64,000 nt of DNA. Origin: a bacterium. Lineage in GTDB: Bacteria; Actinomycetota; Acidimicrobiia; Spongiisociales; Spongiisociaceae. How positions within the stretch are numbered: position 1 is the stretch's first letter; each line of letters opens with the position of its first letter. The translations under genes and the position numbers were made by a program. The DNA is taken from contig JAPPGV010000017.1 in assembly GCA_028821235.1 (NCBI GenBank), positions 1 through 64,000 on the forward strand, read 5' to 3'. Below are positions 27,469 through 34,414 of the stretch, piece after piece. The notes beneath the pieces were generated by a model that ran no database searches, had not been told where the DNA came from, and saw only the letters and a list, made by a program, of their open reading frames with translations.

Positions 27469-28099
27469 GACCATTCTGGTCGCCGGAGTCCGGGTCCTCC
27501 ATGCGGGGGTCCGTCCGGATCAGGCGCCGGTACTCGTGGTCGAGGAGGCCCCAGACCGAGTGGTCCATCCAGCGACCGCCCACTTGGATCTCCTCTCGCA
27601 GCACTCCTTCGCGCACGAACCCGAGTTTCGTAGCTACTCTCTCGCTCGCCTTGTTGCCCACCGCTACGCGGAGCACCATACGGTGCATGGACAGCTCTTC
27701 GAACCCGATCCGGAGGGCCGCGCGGGTGGCTTCGGTGGCGATGCCTCGTCCCGTGTCCTCCGTTCTGATCCAGTAACCGATCTCGCCGGATCGCGAGCTG
27801 CGGGAGACATGCCAGATGCTGATGTTGCCTACGTGGCGATCGGGCCTGTCGTGGAGCCGGATCGAGAAGTCGTAGGCCTTGCCTTCGCGCCACGAGCGCA
27901 TGCTTTCCCGGACGAAGCCGGCCGCTCCAGCCCTCGTAAAGGTCCTGGTAGCCCAGGGTAGGAATTCGGCCAACTCCGTCTGGGAGTCGCGTACTGCGGC
28001 GTACAGGGCTTCGATGTCACGCCGCCTGAATGGCCGGAGCATCAAACGCTGCGTGTAGTGCTCGAGCGGGGGTAACACGTCTCGGGAAGGGATTCGCAT
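27464..28099 (-). CDS. GNAT N-acetyltransferase (RimJ/RimL type)
   Basis: 211 residues from ATG 28099. The N-terminal LEHYTQRLMLRPFRRRDIEALY, the central GNISIWHVSRSSRSGEIGYW strands, the acetyl-CoA loop EDTGRGIATEATRAAL (R/Q-x-x-G-x-G/A pattern), and VGNKASERVATKLGFVREGVLR are those of the RimL/ribosomal protein acetyltransferase branch. A hydrophilic tail of about 20 residues extends past the family end. Target unknown; could be a protein N-terminus or a small amine. Divergent from the Nudix gene. Confidence 0.86.
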   Translation of the reverse strand: MRIPSRDVLPPLEHYTQRLMLRPFRRRDIEALYAAVRDSQTELAEFLPWATRTFTRAGAAGFVRESMRSWREGKAYDFSIRLHDRPDRHVGNISIWHVSRSSRSGEIGYWIRTEDTGRGIATEATRAALRIGFEELSMHRMVLRVAVGNKASERVATKLGFVREGVLREEIQVGGRWMDHSVWGLLDHEYRRLIRTDPRMEDPDSGDQNGR

Positions 28100-28189
28100 G
28101 GCAATCGCGAGCCTATCCGGTATAGGGGGCCCCGGCCACCACTCCAATCCCTTCGCCCGGGCTTCTGGTCGCCCTTCTAGCATCTCCTG

Positions 28190-28729
28190 ATGGACCATCC
28201 CTGGAATCCCGCCCGCCTGCTGCCCGAGCCCCCGACCGGTAACGGAGCCCAGCAGGCGGCGGTGCTGGCCCCTCTGTACGAGGACGGCGACGATCTCAGA
28301 CTGGTCCTGATACGTCGTCCGCTCCACATGCCCACGCACGGCGGTGACATTGCCTTCCCGGGGGGCAAGCCGCAACCGGGGGAGAGGCCGCTCGACACCG
28401 CCCTTCGCGAAGCTCGTGAGGAGGTCGGTATCGAGCCCGCCACGGTGGAGGTGCTCGGCTACCTGCCCGCCATCCACACCGTGAGCTACCCGCTCCTGGT
28501 CGTGCCCGTGGTCGGATGGCTTTCCGGAGTCCCCAGGCTGTGTCCCGACGCGAACGAGGTGGATCGGATACACACTCCGACCGTGGACTCCCTTCTCGAC
28601 GAGACCCGCTGGCGCAGCAAGTCGTGGAAGGGCCACCAGGTGTTCGTGTTCGACCTGGATGGCGACACCCTGTGGGGAGCGACCGCTCGGATGGTGCGGC
28701 GGCTCATCGGCCTGGAGCCGTACTCGTAG
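28190..28729 (+). CDS. Nudix hydrolase, CoA-pyrophosphatase-like
   Basis: 179 residues. The Nudix box is GGKPQPGERPLDTALREAREEVGI, split here only by name: the G-x5-E-x7-REUxEE-x-GU pattern is complete. Before it, LVLIRRPLHMPTHGGDIAFP has the family feature LxxR(x)6HxGxxxFPGG of CoA diphosphatases (NudL/PCD1 type), which cleave CoA to 4'-phosphopantetheine and 3',5'-ADP. The C-terminal WGATARMVRRL also fits. The stop is 13 bases from the convergent phosphatase gene. Confidence 0.85.
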   Translation: MDHPWNPARLLPEPPTGNGAQQAAVLAPLYEDGDDLRLVLIRRPLHMPTHGGDIAFPGGKPQPGERPLDTALREAREEVGIEPATVEVLGYLPAIHTVSYPLLVVPVVGWLSGVPRLCPDANEVDRIHTPTVDSLLDETRWRSKSWKGHQVFVFDLDGDTLWGATARMVRRLIGLEPYS

Positions 28730-28742
28730 AGGTGCTGCTCGG

Positions 28743-29537
28743 TTAGGCGCGACCGGCAGCTGGTCGACCGGTAACGAGTTCGAGGACGGCATCGTGGAGA
28801 TCGCCGTTGGTCGCCAGGCCGGTTCCGGATCGGAACGATGGTTGTCCGGACAGGTCTGTGAACCTGCCACCGGCCTCCGGGAGGATCACCGCCATCGGCG
28901 CCACGTCCCAAGGATTCACGATCGGGTCGAGCATGGCGTCCACCCGGCCCGAAGCCACCAGGCTGTAACCGTAGGCGTCGCCCCATCCCCGCAGGATCAT
29001 CGGCCCCGCGTGGAGGCGTTCGGCCATGTCCTGGGGAAGGAGGTCGAAGCCGCTGGTGCACATCACGGCGCCATCCAGATCGGATCGGCGGCGCACCGAT
29101 ACGGCGCGTTCGTTCAGGTAACAGCCCCGGCCCCGGCCGGCCGCGACGGTCTCGCCGAGCGCGGGGAGGTCTATGACGCCCACCGCGGCGCCGTGCTCGT
29201 CCTCGAGTGCGAGCAGCGTCGCGAAGAGCGGCACGCGCCGGATGAAGGACTGGGTGCCGTCGATGGGGTCGATGAACCAGGTGCGTCCGGATGACCCGGC
29301 GGTGTCGTCGAACTCTTCCCCCACGATGCCGTCTTCGGGGAAGCGCTGGGAGAGTTCGGTGCGGAGGAACTGCTCCGCCGCCCGGTCCGCCTCCGTGACC
29401 GGGCTCCCGTCCCCCTTCACCATCACCTCCGTGGTTCCGTCATACCAGCGCAGGGTGAACTGTCCCGCCTGGCGGGCCAGGTGGACGGCCTGGCTGAGCA
29501 GCGACTCCTCGACCGGAGGTACGCCGGGGCGGATCAT
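28743..29537 (-). CDS. hisN: Inositol monophosphatase-family phosphatase, probably histidinol-phosphatase HisN
   Basis: 264 residues from ATG 29537. Metal- and Li-sensitive phosphatase fold: VMVKGDGSPVTEADRAAEQF, GIVGEEF, WFIDPIDGTQSFIRRVPLFA and the C-terminal VNPWDVAPMAVILPEAGGRF. The GTxxFxRxxPxxATLLAL pattern and YGYSLVASGRVD are as in actinobacterial HisN, the last phosphatase step of histidine synthesis. An inositol- or fructose-phosphatase role cannot be excluded. The start overlaps the cimA stop (ATGA), so it is translated with cimA and would share its leader control. Confidence 0.75.
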   Translation of the reverse strand: MIRPGVPPVEESLLSQAVHLARQAGQFTLRWYDGTTEVMVKGDGSPVTEADRAAEQFLRTELSQRFPEDGIVGEEFDDTAGSSGRTWFIDPIDGTQSFIRRVPLFATLLALEDEHGAAVGVIDLPALGETVAAGRGRGCYLNERAVSVRRRSDLDGAVMCTSGFDLLPQDMAERLHAGPMILRGWGDAYGYSLVASGRVDAMLDPIVNPWDVAPMAVILPEAGGRFTDLSGQPSFRSGTGLATNGDLHDAVLELVTGRPAAGRA

Positions 29538-31135
29538 GATGGGCTGCCGGCCGCTCCGGCCGGCTCCGCTCCAGCGCGTAGCAGGCCGATGACGATCCCG
29601 TCGGCCATCGCCTCCCAGGTGGCTTCTATGACGTTCTCGTGCACCCCGATGGACCCCCAGGTCGAGGGGCCGTCGCTCATCTCGATGAAGACCCTCACGA
29701 CCGCGGCCGTTGAAGCGGTGGCGTCCAGGACTCGTACGTTGTAGTTGGTGAGGCGCAGGGTGTCGAGTTGGGGATAGTGGTGCTTGAGCGCTTCCCGGAG
29801 GGCATGGTCCAGGGCGTTGACCGGCCCGTTGCCCTCGCCGGTTCTTATCACCCGCTCGCCCCGGATCACGATCTTGACCGTGGCCTCCGCCATGACCAGC
29901 GCGTCGGAGCGGTGCTCGGTCGAGACCCGGAACGACTCCAGCTCGAAAAAGTCGTGCGACCATCCTCCGGCCTGCCGCAGCATCAGCTCGAACGAGCCGT
30001 CAGCGGCCTCGAAGTGGTAACCCCGGTTCTCCATGTGCTTGATCTCGTCCAGCACCTCGGTGGCCTGTGCTCCGGTTAACGCGATGCCCAGGTCCCGGGC
30101 CTTGGCGAGTATGGTCGAGCGGCCCGACAGCTCCGAGACCACGGTACGGGTCCGGTTGCCAACGTGAGCCGGGTTCTGGTGCTCGTAGGCGTCGGGGCGC
30201 CGGGCCAGCGCCGAGGTGTGCAGGCCGGCCTTGTGGGTGAAGGCCGACGCGCCCACGAACGGACTGTGAGGGTCGAGGCTGACGTTCACGATCTCTGCGA
30301 TGTGGTGGGCGATGGGCGACAGTATCTCGAGCCGGACCGGATCAAGTACGGGGACTCCCATCTTCAGCACCAGGTCAGGCAGGATGGTGGAGAGGTCGGC
30401 GTTGCCGGTTCTCTCTCCGTAGCCGTTGATGCACCCCTGAACCTGCCGGATCCCCATCTCGACAGCGGTCAGCGACGAGGCCACCGCACAACCGGCGTCG
30501 TTGTGGAAGTGCACGCCCAGTTGTGCGTCGGGAAGAGCCTCCTGGACCCGGTCGATGGCGCCTGCGATGTCCGGCAGCAGGCGTCCTCCGTTGGTATCGC
30601 ACAGGACCAGGCGTTCGGCGCCCTCCTCGAATGCGGCGCGGAGCACTCTGATGGAAAAGTCGGGGTTCGACAGGTACCCGTCGAAGAAGTGCTCCGCATC
30701 GAAGAAGACCCGTCGGTTGTGGCGCCTCAGGTAGGCCACCGACTCGGCCACCATGGCGACGCCGTCGTCCAGGTCCGTCAGGAGGGCCTCGCGCACGTGG
30801 TAGTCCCACGCCTTCCCGACGATGCAGACCACGTCTGTCTCTGCCTCGAGCAGGTTGAGCATCTGTGGATCGCCCTCGACAGACCGGCGGGGCCGGCGCG
30901 TGGCGCCGAAAGCGGTCAGCGACGCGGTACGGAGGCTGAGCTCGGAACGAGCCCGCTTGAAGAACTCGCTGTCCTTCGGGTTGGCCCCGGGCCATCCGCC
31001 CTCGATGTAGCCGACCCCGAGGTCGTCCAGCAGAGCGGCTATCCGCAGCTTGTCGGAGACGGTCAGCGAGATGCCTTCCTGCTGCGCCCCGTCGCGCAGG
31101 GTGGTGTCGTAGATCTCGAGTCGGGGATGTGCCAT
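29534..31135 (-). CDS. cimA: (R)-citramalate synthase
   Basis: 533 residues from ATG 31135 (GAGGGAG upstream). Condenses pyruvate and acetyl-CoA to citramalate, the first step of the threonine-independent route to 2-oxobutyrate and isoleucine. The TIM barrel starts LEIYDTTLRDGAQQEGISLT, with IEGGWPGANPKD, LVLCDTNGGRLLP, GVHFHNDAGCAVA and GCINGYGERTGNADL (metal His and Asp/Asn residues), then SAFTHKAGLHTSAL. The C-terminal LeuA-type regulatory domain (about 400-525) suggests feedback control. The EGGWPG and NGYGERTGNA motifs separate CimA from leucine-pathway LeuA. Upstream lies a leader peptide and attenuator-like hairpin. Confidence 0.95.
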   Translation of the reverse strand: MAHPRLEIYDTTLRDGAQQEGISLTVSDKLRIAALLDDLGVGYIEGGWPGANPKDSEFFKRARSELSLRTASLTAFGATRRPRRSVEGDPQMLNLLEAETDVVCIVGKAWDYHVREALLTDLDDGVAMVAESVAYLRRHNRRVFFDAEHFFDGYLSNPDFSIRVLRAAFEEGAERLVLCDTNGGRLLPDIAGAIDRVQEALPDAQLGVHFHNDAGCAVASSLTAVEMGIRQVQGCINGYGERTGNADLSTILPDLVLKMGVPVLDPVRLEILSPIAHHIAEIVNVSLDPHSPFVGASAFTHKAGLHTSALARRPDAYEHQNPAHVGNRTRTVVSELSGRSTILAKARDLGIALTGAQATEVLDEIKHMENRGYHFEAADGSFELMLRQAGGWSHDFFELESFRVSTEHRSDALVMAEATVKIVIRGERVIRTGEGNGPVNALDHALREALKHHYPQLDTLRLTNYNVRVLDATASTAAVVRVFIEMSDGPSTWGSIGVHENVIEATWEAMADGIVIGLLRAGAEPAGAAGSPS

Positions 31136-31178
31136 GCGAGGCTCCCTCCCTTTGTGAGGCCGGCGGACGGTGGTCGCC

Positions 31179-31210
31179 AAATAAAGAACCCTGCGCCGGG
31201 GCGCAGGGTT
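31179..31210 (-). terminator. Attenuator-like hairpin in the cimA leader
   Basis: On the minus strand AACCCTGCGCC (31210-31200) and GGCGCAGGGTT (31197-31187) form a perfect 11-bp stem with a 2-base loop, followed by the U-rich tail CTTTATTT (31186-31179). It lies about 45 bases ahead of the cimA start and after the Ile leader peptide. Its 5' arm can alternatively pair with 31230-31239. Confidence 0.75.
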
Positions 31211-31238
31211 GCGGACACAGGGGTCGGTTCCCTATGCC

Positions 31239-31271
31239 CTATTCGATAATGATCCCGGTGTGGTTGCTCAT
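31239..31271 (-). CDS. Isoleucine-rich leader peptide of cimA (MSNHTGIIIE)
   Basis: A 10-codon frame whose last residues are three consecutive isoleucines (ATC ATT ATC, bases 31253-31245), then Glu and TAG. It lies between a good promoter and the attenuator-like hairpin of an isoleucine-pathway gene. The ATG is only about 2-4 bases downstream of the likely transcription start, so translation may be leaderless, as is common in actinobacteria. In size and composition it resembles attenuation leader peptides of ilv/leu operons. No protein function beyond ribosome stalling is expected. Confidence 0.65.
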   Translation of the reverse strand: MSNHTGIIIE

Positions 31272-31281
31272 CTCCGGACCG

Positions 31282-31310
31282 AGTGTCGCTGATCCGCTCC
31301 GGTATGTCAA
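31282..31310 (-). promoter_or_regulatory. Promoter for the cimA-hisN transcript
   Basis: Minus strand TTGACA (31310-31305), 17-base spacer, GACACT (31287-31282). The consensus -35 with a near-consensus -10 places the start near 31273-31276, just before the leader-peptide ATG. Confidence 0.6.
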
Positions 31311-31416
31311 CATCCATTTCAGGACGGGCCGGTGGACCGGTGCTGCGCGGACGCACCGTTTAGCGGTCATCGGGCGGTCGGCGTAACCTCTGGATGACTT
31401 GAGCGGAGGTGATGAG

Positions 31417-32397
31417 GTGACCACCAGAAGGGTCTTTTCGGGGATCCAGCCCAGCGGTGACATCCACATCGGCAATTACATGGGGGCGCTCCGCAACTGG
31501 GTGGCCATGCAGGACGAGTACGCCACGGTCTACTGCGTGGTCGATCTCCATGCCCTCACCCTCCCTCAGGATCCCGCCGAATTGGCGCGGGCCCGGGTAC
31601 GGACCGCCAAGATCCTGCTGGCGGCGGGGATCGACCCGCGCCGCTCCATGGTGTACTACCAGAGCCAGGTGCCGCAGCACGCCGAGCTGTCCTGGATCAT
31701 GGGCACCTTCGCCTCGATGGGCCAGTTGGGCCGGATGACCCAGTACAAGGAGAAGGAGGACAAGGGCGGGCAGAACCTGGGCCTGTTCTCCTATCCGGTG
31801 CTGATGGCAGCCGACATCCTGGTCCACCGCGTGCATGCCGTACCGGTCGGTAACGACCAGACCCAGCATCTCGAGTTCACCCGTGATCTCGTTGACCGGT
31901 TCAACTCACGCTATGGAGACTTCTTCCCGGTGCCCGAGCAGATAACCCCGCCGGTGGGAGCACGGGTGATGTCCCTGAAGGATCCCACCTCCAAGATGTC
32001 CAAGTCCGATCCGGATCCGGGCTCGCGGATAATCGTGACCGACGACGCCGACACCATCGTGACCAAGGTTCGGCGGGCGGTTACGGACTCGGGCAACCTG
32101 GTCGCCTACGACGTGGAGCGCAAGCCCGGGATCAGCAACCTACTTGACATCCTGTCCGCGTTCACGGGCCGTAACGTCCACCAACTGGCGGAGGAGTACC
32201 GTTCCGTCGGCTACGGACGGTTCAAGCAAACCGTTGCCGAGGCGGTGATCTCGGGCCTGGCGCCGGTGCGCCGAGCCTATCTCGACCTGGACGACCCCGA
32301 CGTGGAACGGATCATGTCAGAGGGCGCCGAAGCGGCCCGCACCAGGGCCGAGGAGACCATGACCGGCGTGCGCCACCTCATCGGGATCAGTTGTTAG
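31417..32397 (+). CDS. trpS: Tryptophanyl-tRNA synthetase
   Basis: 326 residues from GTG 31417, preceded by GGAGGTGATGAG; the TTG at 31399 would lie upstream of this ribosome site. Class I motifs: HIGN (in GDIHIGNYMGAL) and KMSKS (in SKMSKSDP). Also GVVD-like CVVDLHALT, PVLMAADIL, VPVGNDQTQHLE and the C-terminal helical bundle. Charges tRNA-Trp. Divergent from cimA; the 107 bases between its start and the cimA promoter show no T-box-like specifier/antiterminator. Confidence 0.96.
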   Translation: MTTRRVFSGIQPSGDIHIGNYMGALRNWVAMQDEYATVYCVVDLHALTLPQDPAELARARVRTAKILLAAGIDPRRSMVYYQSQVPQHAELSWIMGTFASMGQLGRMTQYKEKEDKGGQNLGLFSYPVLMAADILVHRVHAVPVGNDQTQHLEFTRDLVDRFNSRYGDFFPVPEQITPPVGARVMSLKDPTSKMSKSDPDPGSRIIVTDDADTIVTKVRRAVTDSGNLVAYDVERKPGISNLLDILSAFTGRNVHQLAEEYRSVGYGRFKQTVAEAVISGLAPVRRAYLDLDDPDVERIMSEGAEAARTRAEETMTGVRHLIGISC

Positions 32398-32406
32398 TTC
32401 CTGGTT
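32393..32406 (+). repeat. Stop-proximal GTTAGTTCCTGGTT repeat
   Basis: Same short element as after the second binding-protein gene (GTTAGTTCCTAGT at 9349). Here it includes the TAG stop of trpS and fills the 19-base gap to the convergent protease gene. Confidence 0.4.
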
Positions 32407-32416
32407 GACAGCACAA

Positions 32417-33145
32417 CTACAAACCAGATGGAGGGGTCGGGAAGAAGAACAGCACCACCAGCGTCGTCAGGTTGAAGCCGCTGTGGGCGAAGATCGTGGG
32501 ACCGAGGGTGCCGGTCCGCGCCCTCAGCGTTCCCAGGAACAACCCGAACGCGAAGAGGACCAGGAGGGTGACAGCGCCGGCGGCGCTGTACAGCGACGGA
32601 TCCACCAGGTGGATGGCGCTGAATAGGACAGAGCTGACGATGACGGCCGTGATCGGCTTGCGGTTGTTTCCCAGGAGCATCCGGAAGACCAGCCCGCGGT
32701 GGATCATCTCCTCCACGACCGGGCCCAGCACCGCCACGCCCACCACTACGGCCGCCATCGTGCTCGTTCCACGAGTCTCGGCAACCGCTTCCACGATCGC
32801 CTGGGGGGTCGCATCCTCGACGCCCAGCAGGAAGCGGAGGCCGGCCGCGAGCCAGGCGAGCGCTATCGACATGGCCGCACCCGCCAGTACCCAGCGGGCG
32901 TGGCGCGGCTCGACCTCGAACGAGAGGGCCTCGGCCAGGTCGGGGAACCCTCGAACCCTGCCTAGCAGGGCGAGCGCGCCGATGTGGCCGAGGTTCTGGA
33001 GGGGAATCAGGACCCAGAAGTAGAAGTGGGGGTCGGCGGTATCCGCGCCGAGCGCGCCGGCGATCAGTCCTGCGACCACCGCCCCAAGGACTCCTGCTCC
33101 GAGGACCGTAAGGGCGTCGTACCAACGCCAGCGAGCTTCCAGCAC
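32417..33145 (-). CDS. CPBP-family intramembrane metalloprotease
   Basis: 242 residues, GTG start. About 7-8 transmembrane helices. The three ABI/CPBP motifs are present: EExxxR in VVEEMIHRG, FxxxH in LFSAIH, and HxxxN in AHSGFN. These form the membrane-embedded metal site of Rce1-like proteases. Prokaryotic members process prenylated, peptide or anti-sigma-like substrates; none is indicated here. Convergent with trpS. Confidence 0.88.
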   Translation of the reverse strand: MLEARWRWYDALTVLGAGVLGAVVAGLIAGALGADTADPHFYFWVLIPLQNLGHIGALALLGRVRGFPDLAEALSFEVEPRHARWVLAGAAMSIALAWLAAGLRFLLGVEDATPQAIVEAVAETRGTSTMAAVVVGVAVLGPVVEEMIHRGLVFRMLLGNNRKPITAVIVSSVLFSAIHLVDPSLYSAAGAVTLLVLFAFGLFLGTLRARTGTLGPTIFAHSGFNLTTLVVLFFFPTPPSGL

Positions 33146-33260
33146 TGACCCGCCAGGCTAGTGCCGTGCTGCGGGAATCCTGCCGCCGTTCTCCCGGCGG
33201 ACCTGCCTCCGCTTGCCGAAATCATGGAGTTTCAGTAGCGGGAGGGGTAGAGTCCGACCC

Positions 33261-34414
33261 ATGCGCGAATCCCGCGGGCTCCGGCGGATGTTCACCGCGG
33301 CCGCGGTTCTGGCCGTGGCGCTGCTAGCCGGGGCCTGTTCGGGCGACTCGGAGTCCGACCCGACCACGACCACCGCGGCGCCTGCGACTACTACCACGAC
33401 TGCGCCTGCGACTACTACCACCACTGCGCTTGCGACTACTACGACTACCGCGGCGCCTGCGACTACTACGACCACCGCGCCCGGAGAGACGGAGCCGGCC
33501 GCGCAGCCACGCGGCACCCGGGCGGATTTCTTCGTGGACGCCTCCACCACCTACCAGGACGTGATGGACAGGATCTCCGGGGACGAGAGGGAGTGCATCA
33601 AGGCGGCTCTCGGGGAGATGGTGTACAACATCTTCGTGTCCAGGCCGGTTCTGAGCGAAGATGGAGAGGACGCAGGCCGGGACCCTCACTCGTCACCAGG
33701 CTGTTCTCGTGCCTGACCCAGGACAACGTGGTGCTGGCCATGATCGTGTTGAGAGACGCTACCGCGGGCCGGATGGACGAGGAGGCCCGCCGGTGCCGCG
33801 TGCCCCTCGCCCTGCGGATCCCGGAGAGCTACCACCAGCAGGCCGGTCTGGAGTGGGAAGGGGAGCGCGTTCCCGCCAAGGAACTGGCCGAGATCAACTC
33901 CCGGATCCTGGAGTGCTTCTCCGACGAAGAGGTGGCGGCGTTGCAGTTCCGCGTCTACCAGCAACTGGTCGAGATGGTTGACATAGAGTTGGCGGACGTA
34001 ATCGGCGCGTTCACGGACGCCGAGCTGGACTGCTTCCGCGAGCGCATCGGCACCGACGAGTTCGAAGCGATCCTGGACTCCCCGCTCAGAGGTGCCGGTG
34101 CTATGTCTGATCACGAATTGCATGAGGCGTGCTTCACGCCGGACACCCCCGGGCGCCTGTACGCCGCCTATGTCGGGATCCTGCTCGGCGAGGACTTGTC
34201 AGAAGGGTCGGCGAGCTGCATGATCGACTTCGCGAGCGAGCACGAGCACTACATCGACTACCTGTTCTTCACGCCGTATGAGGACAAACTGGCGCTCGAC
34301 GCGGAGACCCGCGCCGAGTACCTGAAAGACGGATACCGGCTTCACTCCTGCTTCAGCGACGACGAGTCAAGACGGTGGAACGACCTCTACTTCGAAGCCT
34401 TCCAACAGGGATAG
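33261..34414 (+). pseudogene. Thr-rich lipoprotein gene split by a frameshift
   Basis: From ATG 33261 the first frame gives a signal peptide ending LLAGAC (lipobox Cys 26), a Thr/Ala repeat linker, then a folded-looking part ERECIKAALGEMVYNIFVS, and runs into a stop at 33716. The overlapping frame (open from before 33593 to 34414) continues the same type of sequence from LVTRLFSCLTQDNVVLAMIV, with repeated Cys-containing helical units such as ILECFSDEEV, ELDCFRERIG and LHSCFSDDES. The switch would be near 33680-33700. The joined product would be about 380 residues. A single-base indel, real or from assembly, explains it. Family not recognised; secreted and probably surface-anchored. Confidence 0.6.
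33378..33478 (+). repeat. 24-base tandem repeat coding a Thr/Ala linker
   Basis: About four copies of a GCGCCTGCGACTACTACCAC-type unit (eight codons, A-P-A-T-T-T-T-T), with minor changes and one copy longer by a codon. It encodes the linker after the lipobox. Such repeats are prone to slippage. Confidence 0.75.

Follow-up and report, generated by a model that had tools for sequence, protein, structure and literature searches.

Mycobacterial leaders with Cys codons are leaderless attenuators, built around a short ORF with control codons near its stop codon. Attenuators of the trp and ilv type, including the trp leaders of Corynebacterium and Streptomyces, combine control codons for the end product with an intrinsic terminator and sense the position of the ribosome, as outlined in a survey of 2005 (PMC1262725). 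In the account given there, the mycobacterial Cys-codon ORFs come without conserved terminator hairpins, actinobacterial leuA is preceded by a LEU element in which a run of Leu codons pairs with the leuA Shine–Dalgarno sequence in a pseudoknot, and actinobacterial leaders of branched-chain amino acid (BCAA) genes carry control codons and terminators whose mode of action is called unclear; codon changes in the Streptomyces ilvB leader are cited as having been without effect. For two actinobacterial ilvB leaders, the ilvB-II motif of Corynebacterium (PMC10272879) and ilvB1 of Mycobacterium tuberculosis (PMC13236596), the published descriptions include a proposed antiterminator. In ilvB-II, as depicted there, the upstream ORF spans most of a hairpin called P1, and the antiterminator consists of the 3′ shoulder of P2 and the P1 loop (PMC10272879).

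The leader described here precedes cimA, the gene for citramalate synthase, and shares BCAA codons and a terminator with both ilvB leaders and the presence of two stem-loops with ilvB-II. It differs from the trp/ilv type in that we found no mutually exclusive antiterminator in it and that a hairpin anchored at the stop codon adjoins the terminator, and from the mycobacterial Cys-codon leaders in that its terminator is conserved. The unusual putative switch, a hairpin beside a terminator, appears in none of the descriptions of known attenuators with which we compared it. Searches with Rfam 15 gave four weak matches in positions 28000-34000 of the window at E values up to 5, all below the gathering threshold and none on the leader, and no match at E values up to 1 in eight leader-bearing loci, T-box, ilvB-OMG, and other leaders included. 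In the open-access literature searched, we found no title or abstract opening that describes leader-peptide attenuation of cimA, and a search there on the class to which the window belongs gave no attenuation paper.

The window, that is, the whole stretch of 64,000 nucleotides that was analysed, carries the leader on the minus strand between trpS (31399-32397, plus strand; TIGR00233) and cimA (29534..31135, minus strand), as a compact succession of promoter, leader ORF, hairpin P1, and terminator hairpin T. The gene downstream had been named citramalate synthase in the original prediction, and it matches the TIGR00977 equivalog with 646.6 bits against a cut-off of 450; it begins 43 nt beyond the end of the U-rich tail of T. 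The predicted promoter is present as well, with a −35 hexamer TTGACA at 31310-31305, a 17-nt spacer, and a −10 hexamer GACACT at 31287-31282, followed after 10 nt by the ATG of the leader ORF at 31271-31269. This ORF (31239..31271) encodes the peptide MSNHTGIIIE and ends with a TAG at 31241-31239; its three Ile control codons, ATC ATT ATC at 31253-31245, are likewise as predicted and are kept in relatives. The window promoter gave 0 sites in a consensus promoter scan, its −10 hexamer being poor compared with the consensus and below the threshold, but it is supported by the recurrence of the same layout in relatives. By our script, 71 of the 82 distinct cimA leaders have a recognisable promoter, whose spacer is 17 nt long in 67 and whose −10 hexamer is CATACT in 44. 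The start codon lies 6-11 nt past the −10 hexamer in 70 of the 71, in line with the predicted proximity of the ATG to the transcription start, and the leader mRNA is therefore probably leaderless or almost leaderless. When the genome itself was searched at the DNA level, the leader sequence was returned once. The closest named relative by cimA is an Acidimicrobiia metagenome-assembled genome (L032), with 95% identity.

A comparison of the upstream regions of cimA in relatives, which had been proposed as a check, revealed that the Ile codons are kept and that the stems of both P1 and T show compensatory changes. The leader stands directly upstream of cimA in 99 of 158 loci, some species being present in two collections, and the cimA genes of the leader-bearing loci are down to 53% identical to that of the window. 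The 99 comprise the 98 loci of our leader table and L033, an exact duplicate of L012 that was left out of it; L059, L065, L072, L088, and L103 were removed from the table by eye as chance hairpins, and in L088 and L103 the element is present farther upstream. In the 82 distinct leaders, Ile occupies codon position −2 in 75, −3 in 72, and −4 in 73, and in the seven leaders without Ile at −2 the Ile run is displaced by one codon. At −2 the codon is ATC in 46 leaders and ATT in 29; this exchange with retention of the residue points to selection on the amino acid. In one genome (G005, locus L007), about 100 extra bases separate the terminator from cimA as compared with the sister genomes of its genus.

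To the 59 cimA loci without an adjacent leader we applied a covariance model, R1, built from 41 cimA leaders including that of the window. It places the element farther upstream in 28 of them, where by motif reading it precedes leuB in 27 and ilvE in one (L088), and at least two Ile are found among the last six codons in 21 of these 28 leaders. L053 and L068 are among the 27, and the gene order leuB-ilvE-cimA is explicit in L053. Such units belong to other families than that of the window, and in them the Ile leader stands at the apparent start of the cimA transcription unit. In the table of these leaders, the 29-nt spacings of L091 and L096 are due to small end hairpins mistaken for T. No R1 match was found in the remaining 31 of the 59 loci, several of which have short flanks.

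Two 10-bp hairpins follow the leader ORF. P1 (31213..31239, minus strand) pairs 31239-31230 with 31222-31213, so that its first base is the final one of the stop codon; eight of its eight counted pairs have changed on both sides. T (31187..31210, minus strand), identified by covariation and by a terminator scan, pairs 31210-31201 with 31196-31187, and its U-rich tail (31179..31188) overlaps its last two paired bases. In the window, 2 nt separate the two hairpins. The terminator and its U-rich tail had been predicted with a stem of 11 bp; hairpin and tail exist, and the stem is 10 bp long by both structure and tool scan, as an 11th pair would close a 2-nt loop. A second small hairpin, 31236-31230 with 31222-31216, had also been proposed; these bases do pair, as the inner part of the 10-bp P1 and not as a hairpin of their own. 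Among the 82 cimA leaders, 71 have the last stop-codon base in the first pair of P1 and the other 11 the base after it; P1 and T are 0-7 nt apart in all 82, and the median distance from the end of the stop codon to T is 29 nt. P1 of the cimA leaders thus begins where the ORF ends in 82 of 82, unlike that of ilvB-II.

Both hairpins covary. In a model-guided alignment of 61 of the 82 distinct leaders, P1 and T were paired in 95.0% of their cells, where shuffling gave 82.1%, and the covariation score was 0.423 (shuffled 0.188). Of five measures, four were higher than in any of the 500 shuffles, and the remaining one was equalled by a single shuffle. Our model-guided alignments (A4, A5) are fitted to the modelled structure and hence biased towards P1 and T. 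They replaced a MAFFT alignment of mixed leaders (A2), which placed the P1 3′ arm wrongly; a further alignment (A3), with partly antisense and weak spurious rows, was not used. An alignment-free test, in which the arms were swapped among the 82 leaders, gave a strong preference for the native partner for the arms of P1 (z −22) and of T (z −20). Between the leader ORF and the P1 3′ arm, native preference was weak (z −2.7; z −3.4 for the last 18 nt including the stop codon), a signal that may be due in part to the stop-codon base being shared.

The same architecture precedes other BCAA genes. Of 40 further R1 sites that were fetched, 39 were read, and one (L217, E 0.036) was dropped as spurious. 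Motif reading places 29 of the 39 before ilvB or a gene like it, and four (L199, L205, L222, L224) before leuA. Of the six left open by the script, L200, L206, and L213 show the start of ilvB by eye, and at L195, which runs off its contig, L201, and L203 the downstream gene is not reached. Locus L215, kept among the 39, has a TDPIIIS leader before a second AHAS-like gene. The genome of the window has such a sister element itself (G000:C61:14406-14483; L190, L240), in which the leader MTGRSLVLVLM is followed by ilvB (TIGR00118, 768 bits). In 35 of the 39 sister leaders, P1 again opens with the last base of the stop codon; the P1–T gap is 0-7 nt in all 39, and the median distance from the end of the stop codon to T is 28 nt. 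In 31 ilvB/leuA leaders, 98.9% of the cells were paired as against 87.8% after shuffling, a value that none of 500 shuffles reached.

The control codons match the pathways, being Ile before cimA, Leu, Val, or Ile before ilvB, and runs of Leu before leuA, and an intrinsic terminator lies between leader and gene. Because of this match, we consider it very likely that the cimA leader is a ribosome-mediated transcription attenuator. The opposite extreme, a constitutive promoter followed by a chance ORF and a leaky terminator without any regulation, would leave both the codon–pathway matching and the strong covariation over many genera to coincidence, and is exceedingly improbable.

How the ribosome would act on T is less straightforward. 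The original prediction envisaged a classical switch, in which a ribosome stalled on the Ile codons frees the segment after the stop codon, 31239-31230, to pair with 31208-31199 in the 5′ arm of T as an antiterminator. The complementarity exists in the window, with 9 of 10 pairs and a duplex energy of −9.0 kcal/mol, in the same geometry as in four trpE leaders considered below; as a conserved antiterminator, the pairing found no backing from covariation, swap test, or folding. Among the 61 aligned leaders, 54.0% of its cells were paired as against 53.0% after shuffling, and 34 of 500 shuffles scored as high. It does exceed versions of itself slid by 1-3 columns (24-45% of cells), as a structure drawn from one of the aligned sequences tends to do. 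The swap test on the 82 leaders came out opposite to what an antiterminator would give, native partners binding each other less well than exchanged ones (z +2.7). An energy of −7 kcal/mol or better is reached by 10 of the 14 leaders from the window's own family and by only 2 of the remaining 68, which marks the antiterminator as a local look-alike. Nor did swap tests on the 82 leaders detect native preference between either arm of T and the P1 5′ arm, P1 3′ arm, P1 loop, or ORF. The value for the P1 loop with the T 3′ arm was z +0.2, so that the pairing described for ilvB-II is unconserved here; with the control codons outside P1 and no P1-loop antiterminator, the cimA leader does not belong to the ilvB-II motif.

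Folding calculations agree with this. Equilibrium folding of the full leader lets T win in trp leaders too and does not separate classical from non-classical leaders; since it is uninformative in this respect, we used transcripts cut before arm 4. In the window, before the T 3′ arm is made, the antiterminator reaches its highest predicted probability, 0.052, when a ribosome occupies the first Ile codon, and does not exceed 0.028 in any other ribosome state; for P1, the values are 0.92 with the ribosome on that codon and 0.99 when no ribosome is present. The predicted switching of the window leader by a competing antiterminator is thus not reproduced. The antiterminator exceeds a probability of 0.2 in any ribosome state in only 2 of the 82 leaders (L012 and L030), and exceeds 0.5 in none of the 82 cimA leaders and none of the 39 ilvB/leuA leaders. 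When the ribosome occupies the first Ile codon, the probability that arm 3 is paired with any partner before arm 4 has a median of 0.14 in the cimA leaders (0.37 in the window) and reaches 0.5 in 3 of 82; at the stop codon, the median is 0.36 (0.46 in the window).

As a positive control we used the leaders of trpE, picked by the simple filter of at least two Trp codons. Four of 25 trpE loci, from the same order as the window (L265-L268; G016, G025, G021, G018), have two to three consecutive Trp codons near the stop codon. Like the cimA leader, they carry control codons near the stop codon and a post-stop segment that would be masked by a terminating ribosome. Their post-stop segment, however, pairs with the T 5′ arm, with predicted probabilities of 0.66-0.90 in four of four before the 3′ arm is made, whereas that of the cimA leader pairs with its own partner in P1. 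In the trp leaders, the median probability that arm 3 is paired with any partner falls from 0.71 with the ribosome on the first Trp codon to 0.30 once it has reached the stop codon. For the ilvB/leuA leaders, this any-partner test took in 38, L205 being omitted because the script had mis-chosen its start. The tests can therefore detect the mutually exclusive antiterminator of classical attenuators, and they detected none in the BCAA leaders. Weighing the local complementarity against these results, we hold the classical switch to be very improbable for the cimA leader.

To look for structures that do respond to the ribosome, its footprint was masked from −15 to +15 around the P site. Over the 82 leaders, the median probability of P1 was 0.99 with the first Ile codon in the A site, 0.46 with the last Ile codon, and 0 with the ribosome at the stop codon, making P1 the structure predicted to change most with ribosome position across the family. 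T had a median probability of 0.97 in every ribosome state and stayed at or above 0.8 in 76-78 of the 82 leaders, or 68 of 82 with the ribosome at the stop codon.

We assign a probability of roughly one half to the reading that the cimA leader is an Ile-sensing attenuator of the BCAA leader family, switched by the stop-anchored hairpin P1 beside the terminator. Transcription would start at or a few nucleotides before the leader ATG, and ribosomes would load at the 5′ end of the transcript. With sufficient Ile-tRNA, the ribosome would reach the stop codon, cover the 5′ arm of P1, and melt P1, leaving about 29 nt of single strand before T, upon which T would form and RNA polymerase would stop. 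When Ile-tRNA is short, the ribosome would halt on the Ile codons with its front edge just short of P1. The folded P1, 0-7 nt from T, would then block the full closure of T or its action in the exit channel of the polymerase, and cimA would be read; the stalled ribosome behind P1 possibly helps to hinder T. We infer the direction of this response, a folded P1 meaning read-through, from what would be useful to a gene of biosynthesis. The steric action of P1 on T is likewise putative; given the constant median of T, base pairing alone predicts constant termination. We know of no precedent for inhibition of an adjacent terminator by a hairpin of the P1 type. In an E. coli reporter, the repression of a terminator by a ribosome at the stop codon was lost when the distance exceeded 27 nt (PMC4824070); the median stop-to-T distance of 29 nt lies just above this value, and may simply reflect the size of a 10-bp hairpin.

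The sign could also be the opposite one, with a folded P1 aiding T and a ribosome at the stop codon giving read-through. P1 and T do fold together at equilibrium, and clusters of hairpins are treated as promoting termination in one report (PMC8355165). In the window, moreover, placing the ribosome at the stop codon lowers T to 0.46 and brings the pairing of the P1 3′ arm with the T 3′ arm to 0.43, the reverse of what switching by P1 as proposed above needs; T drops because its 3′ arm is captured by the P1 3′ arm, which in the window's genus is similar to the T 5′ arm, and the alternative hairpin so formed also precedes the U-tract. Over the 82 leaders, however, the corresponding medians at the stop codon are 0.97 and 0, and the opposite sign would mean that the biosynthesis encoded by cimA, ilvB, leuA, and leuB is shut off in every case when the amino acid is short. 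We regard this possibility as improbable.

The main rival to an action of P1 on T is a role of P1 in pausing. In trp leaders, the 1:2 hairpin is a pause hairpin that holds the polymerase for the ribosome, and hairpin pauses have a spacing of about 11 nt. If P1 were such a hairpin, it would hold the polymerase until the ribosome arrives, and antitermination would come from a kinetic step or another structure. In 78 of 81 cimA leaders, the first Y|G of the T 5′ arm follows P1 at a distance of 8-15 nt, with a median of 11 nt, as this would have it. The distance from P1 to Y|G nevertheless varies more (sd 2.05) than the spacing between P1 and T (sd 1.68), there is no sharp Y|G peak in the cimA leaders, and pausing by itself would not settle whether transcription ends or continues. 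On balance we find the pausing role unlikely, though far from negligible.

Carried further, switching of T by a neighbouring P1 leads to a broader proposal, which we put forward tentatively: a class-wide family of attenuators without any antiterminator, in which a hairpin fixed at the stop codon controls T by its closeness, as a retractable spacer, and in which the sensing of Ile, Val, or Leu differs by codon exchange only. Should a terminator prove to be switchable by an adjoining stop-codon hairpin with which it has no bases in common, a whole kind of attenuator would escape searches for antiterminators. The cimA leader family bears on the mode of action of actinobacterial BCAA leaders, and through it citramalate synthase and the leuB-ilvE-cimA operon join the genes apparently run by leader peptides.

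The element is widespread. R1 matches 51 of 59 genomes, that of the window included, with at least two matches in 43 of the 59, and recovers the window leader, one of its training sequences, in its own genome at E 8.6e-14. A second covariance model, R2, built from the 31 ilvB/leuA leaders, matches 36 of 40 genomes, and in the genome of the window it finds the cimA and ilvB sites only, at E values up to 10. In a sample of the class that included the order of the window, R2 matched 102 of 119 genomes, and in a sample of the phylum R1 matched 43 of 149. Six genomes of one family of the order, f8 (G021, G028, G034, G041, G048, G053), showed no element in the class sample and no cimA match at E 1e-100; others of this family (G059, G069) carry both the element and cimA. 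Among these matches, 25 loci were inspected (L288-L312). By eye, the gene downstream was ilvB seven times, cimA four times, leuB three times, and leuA once; at the other ten loci it was not recognised, L288, L292, L303, and L306 of these being without the element by script.
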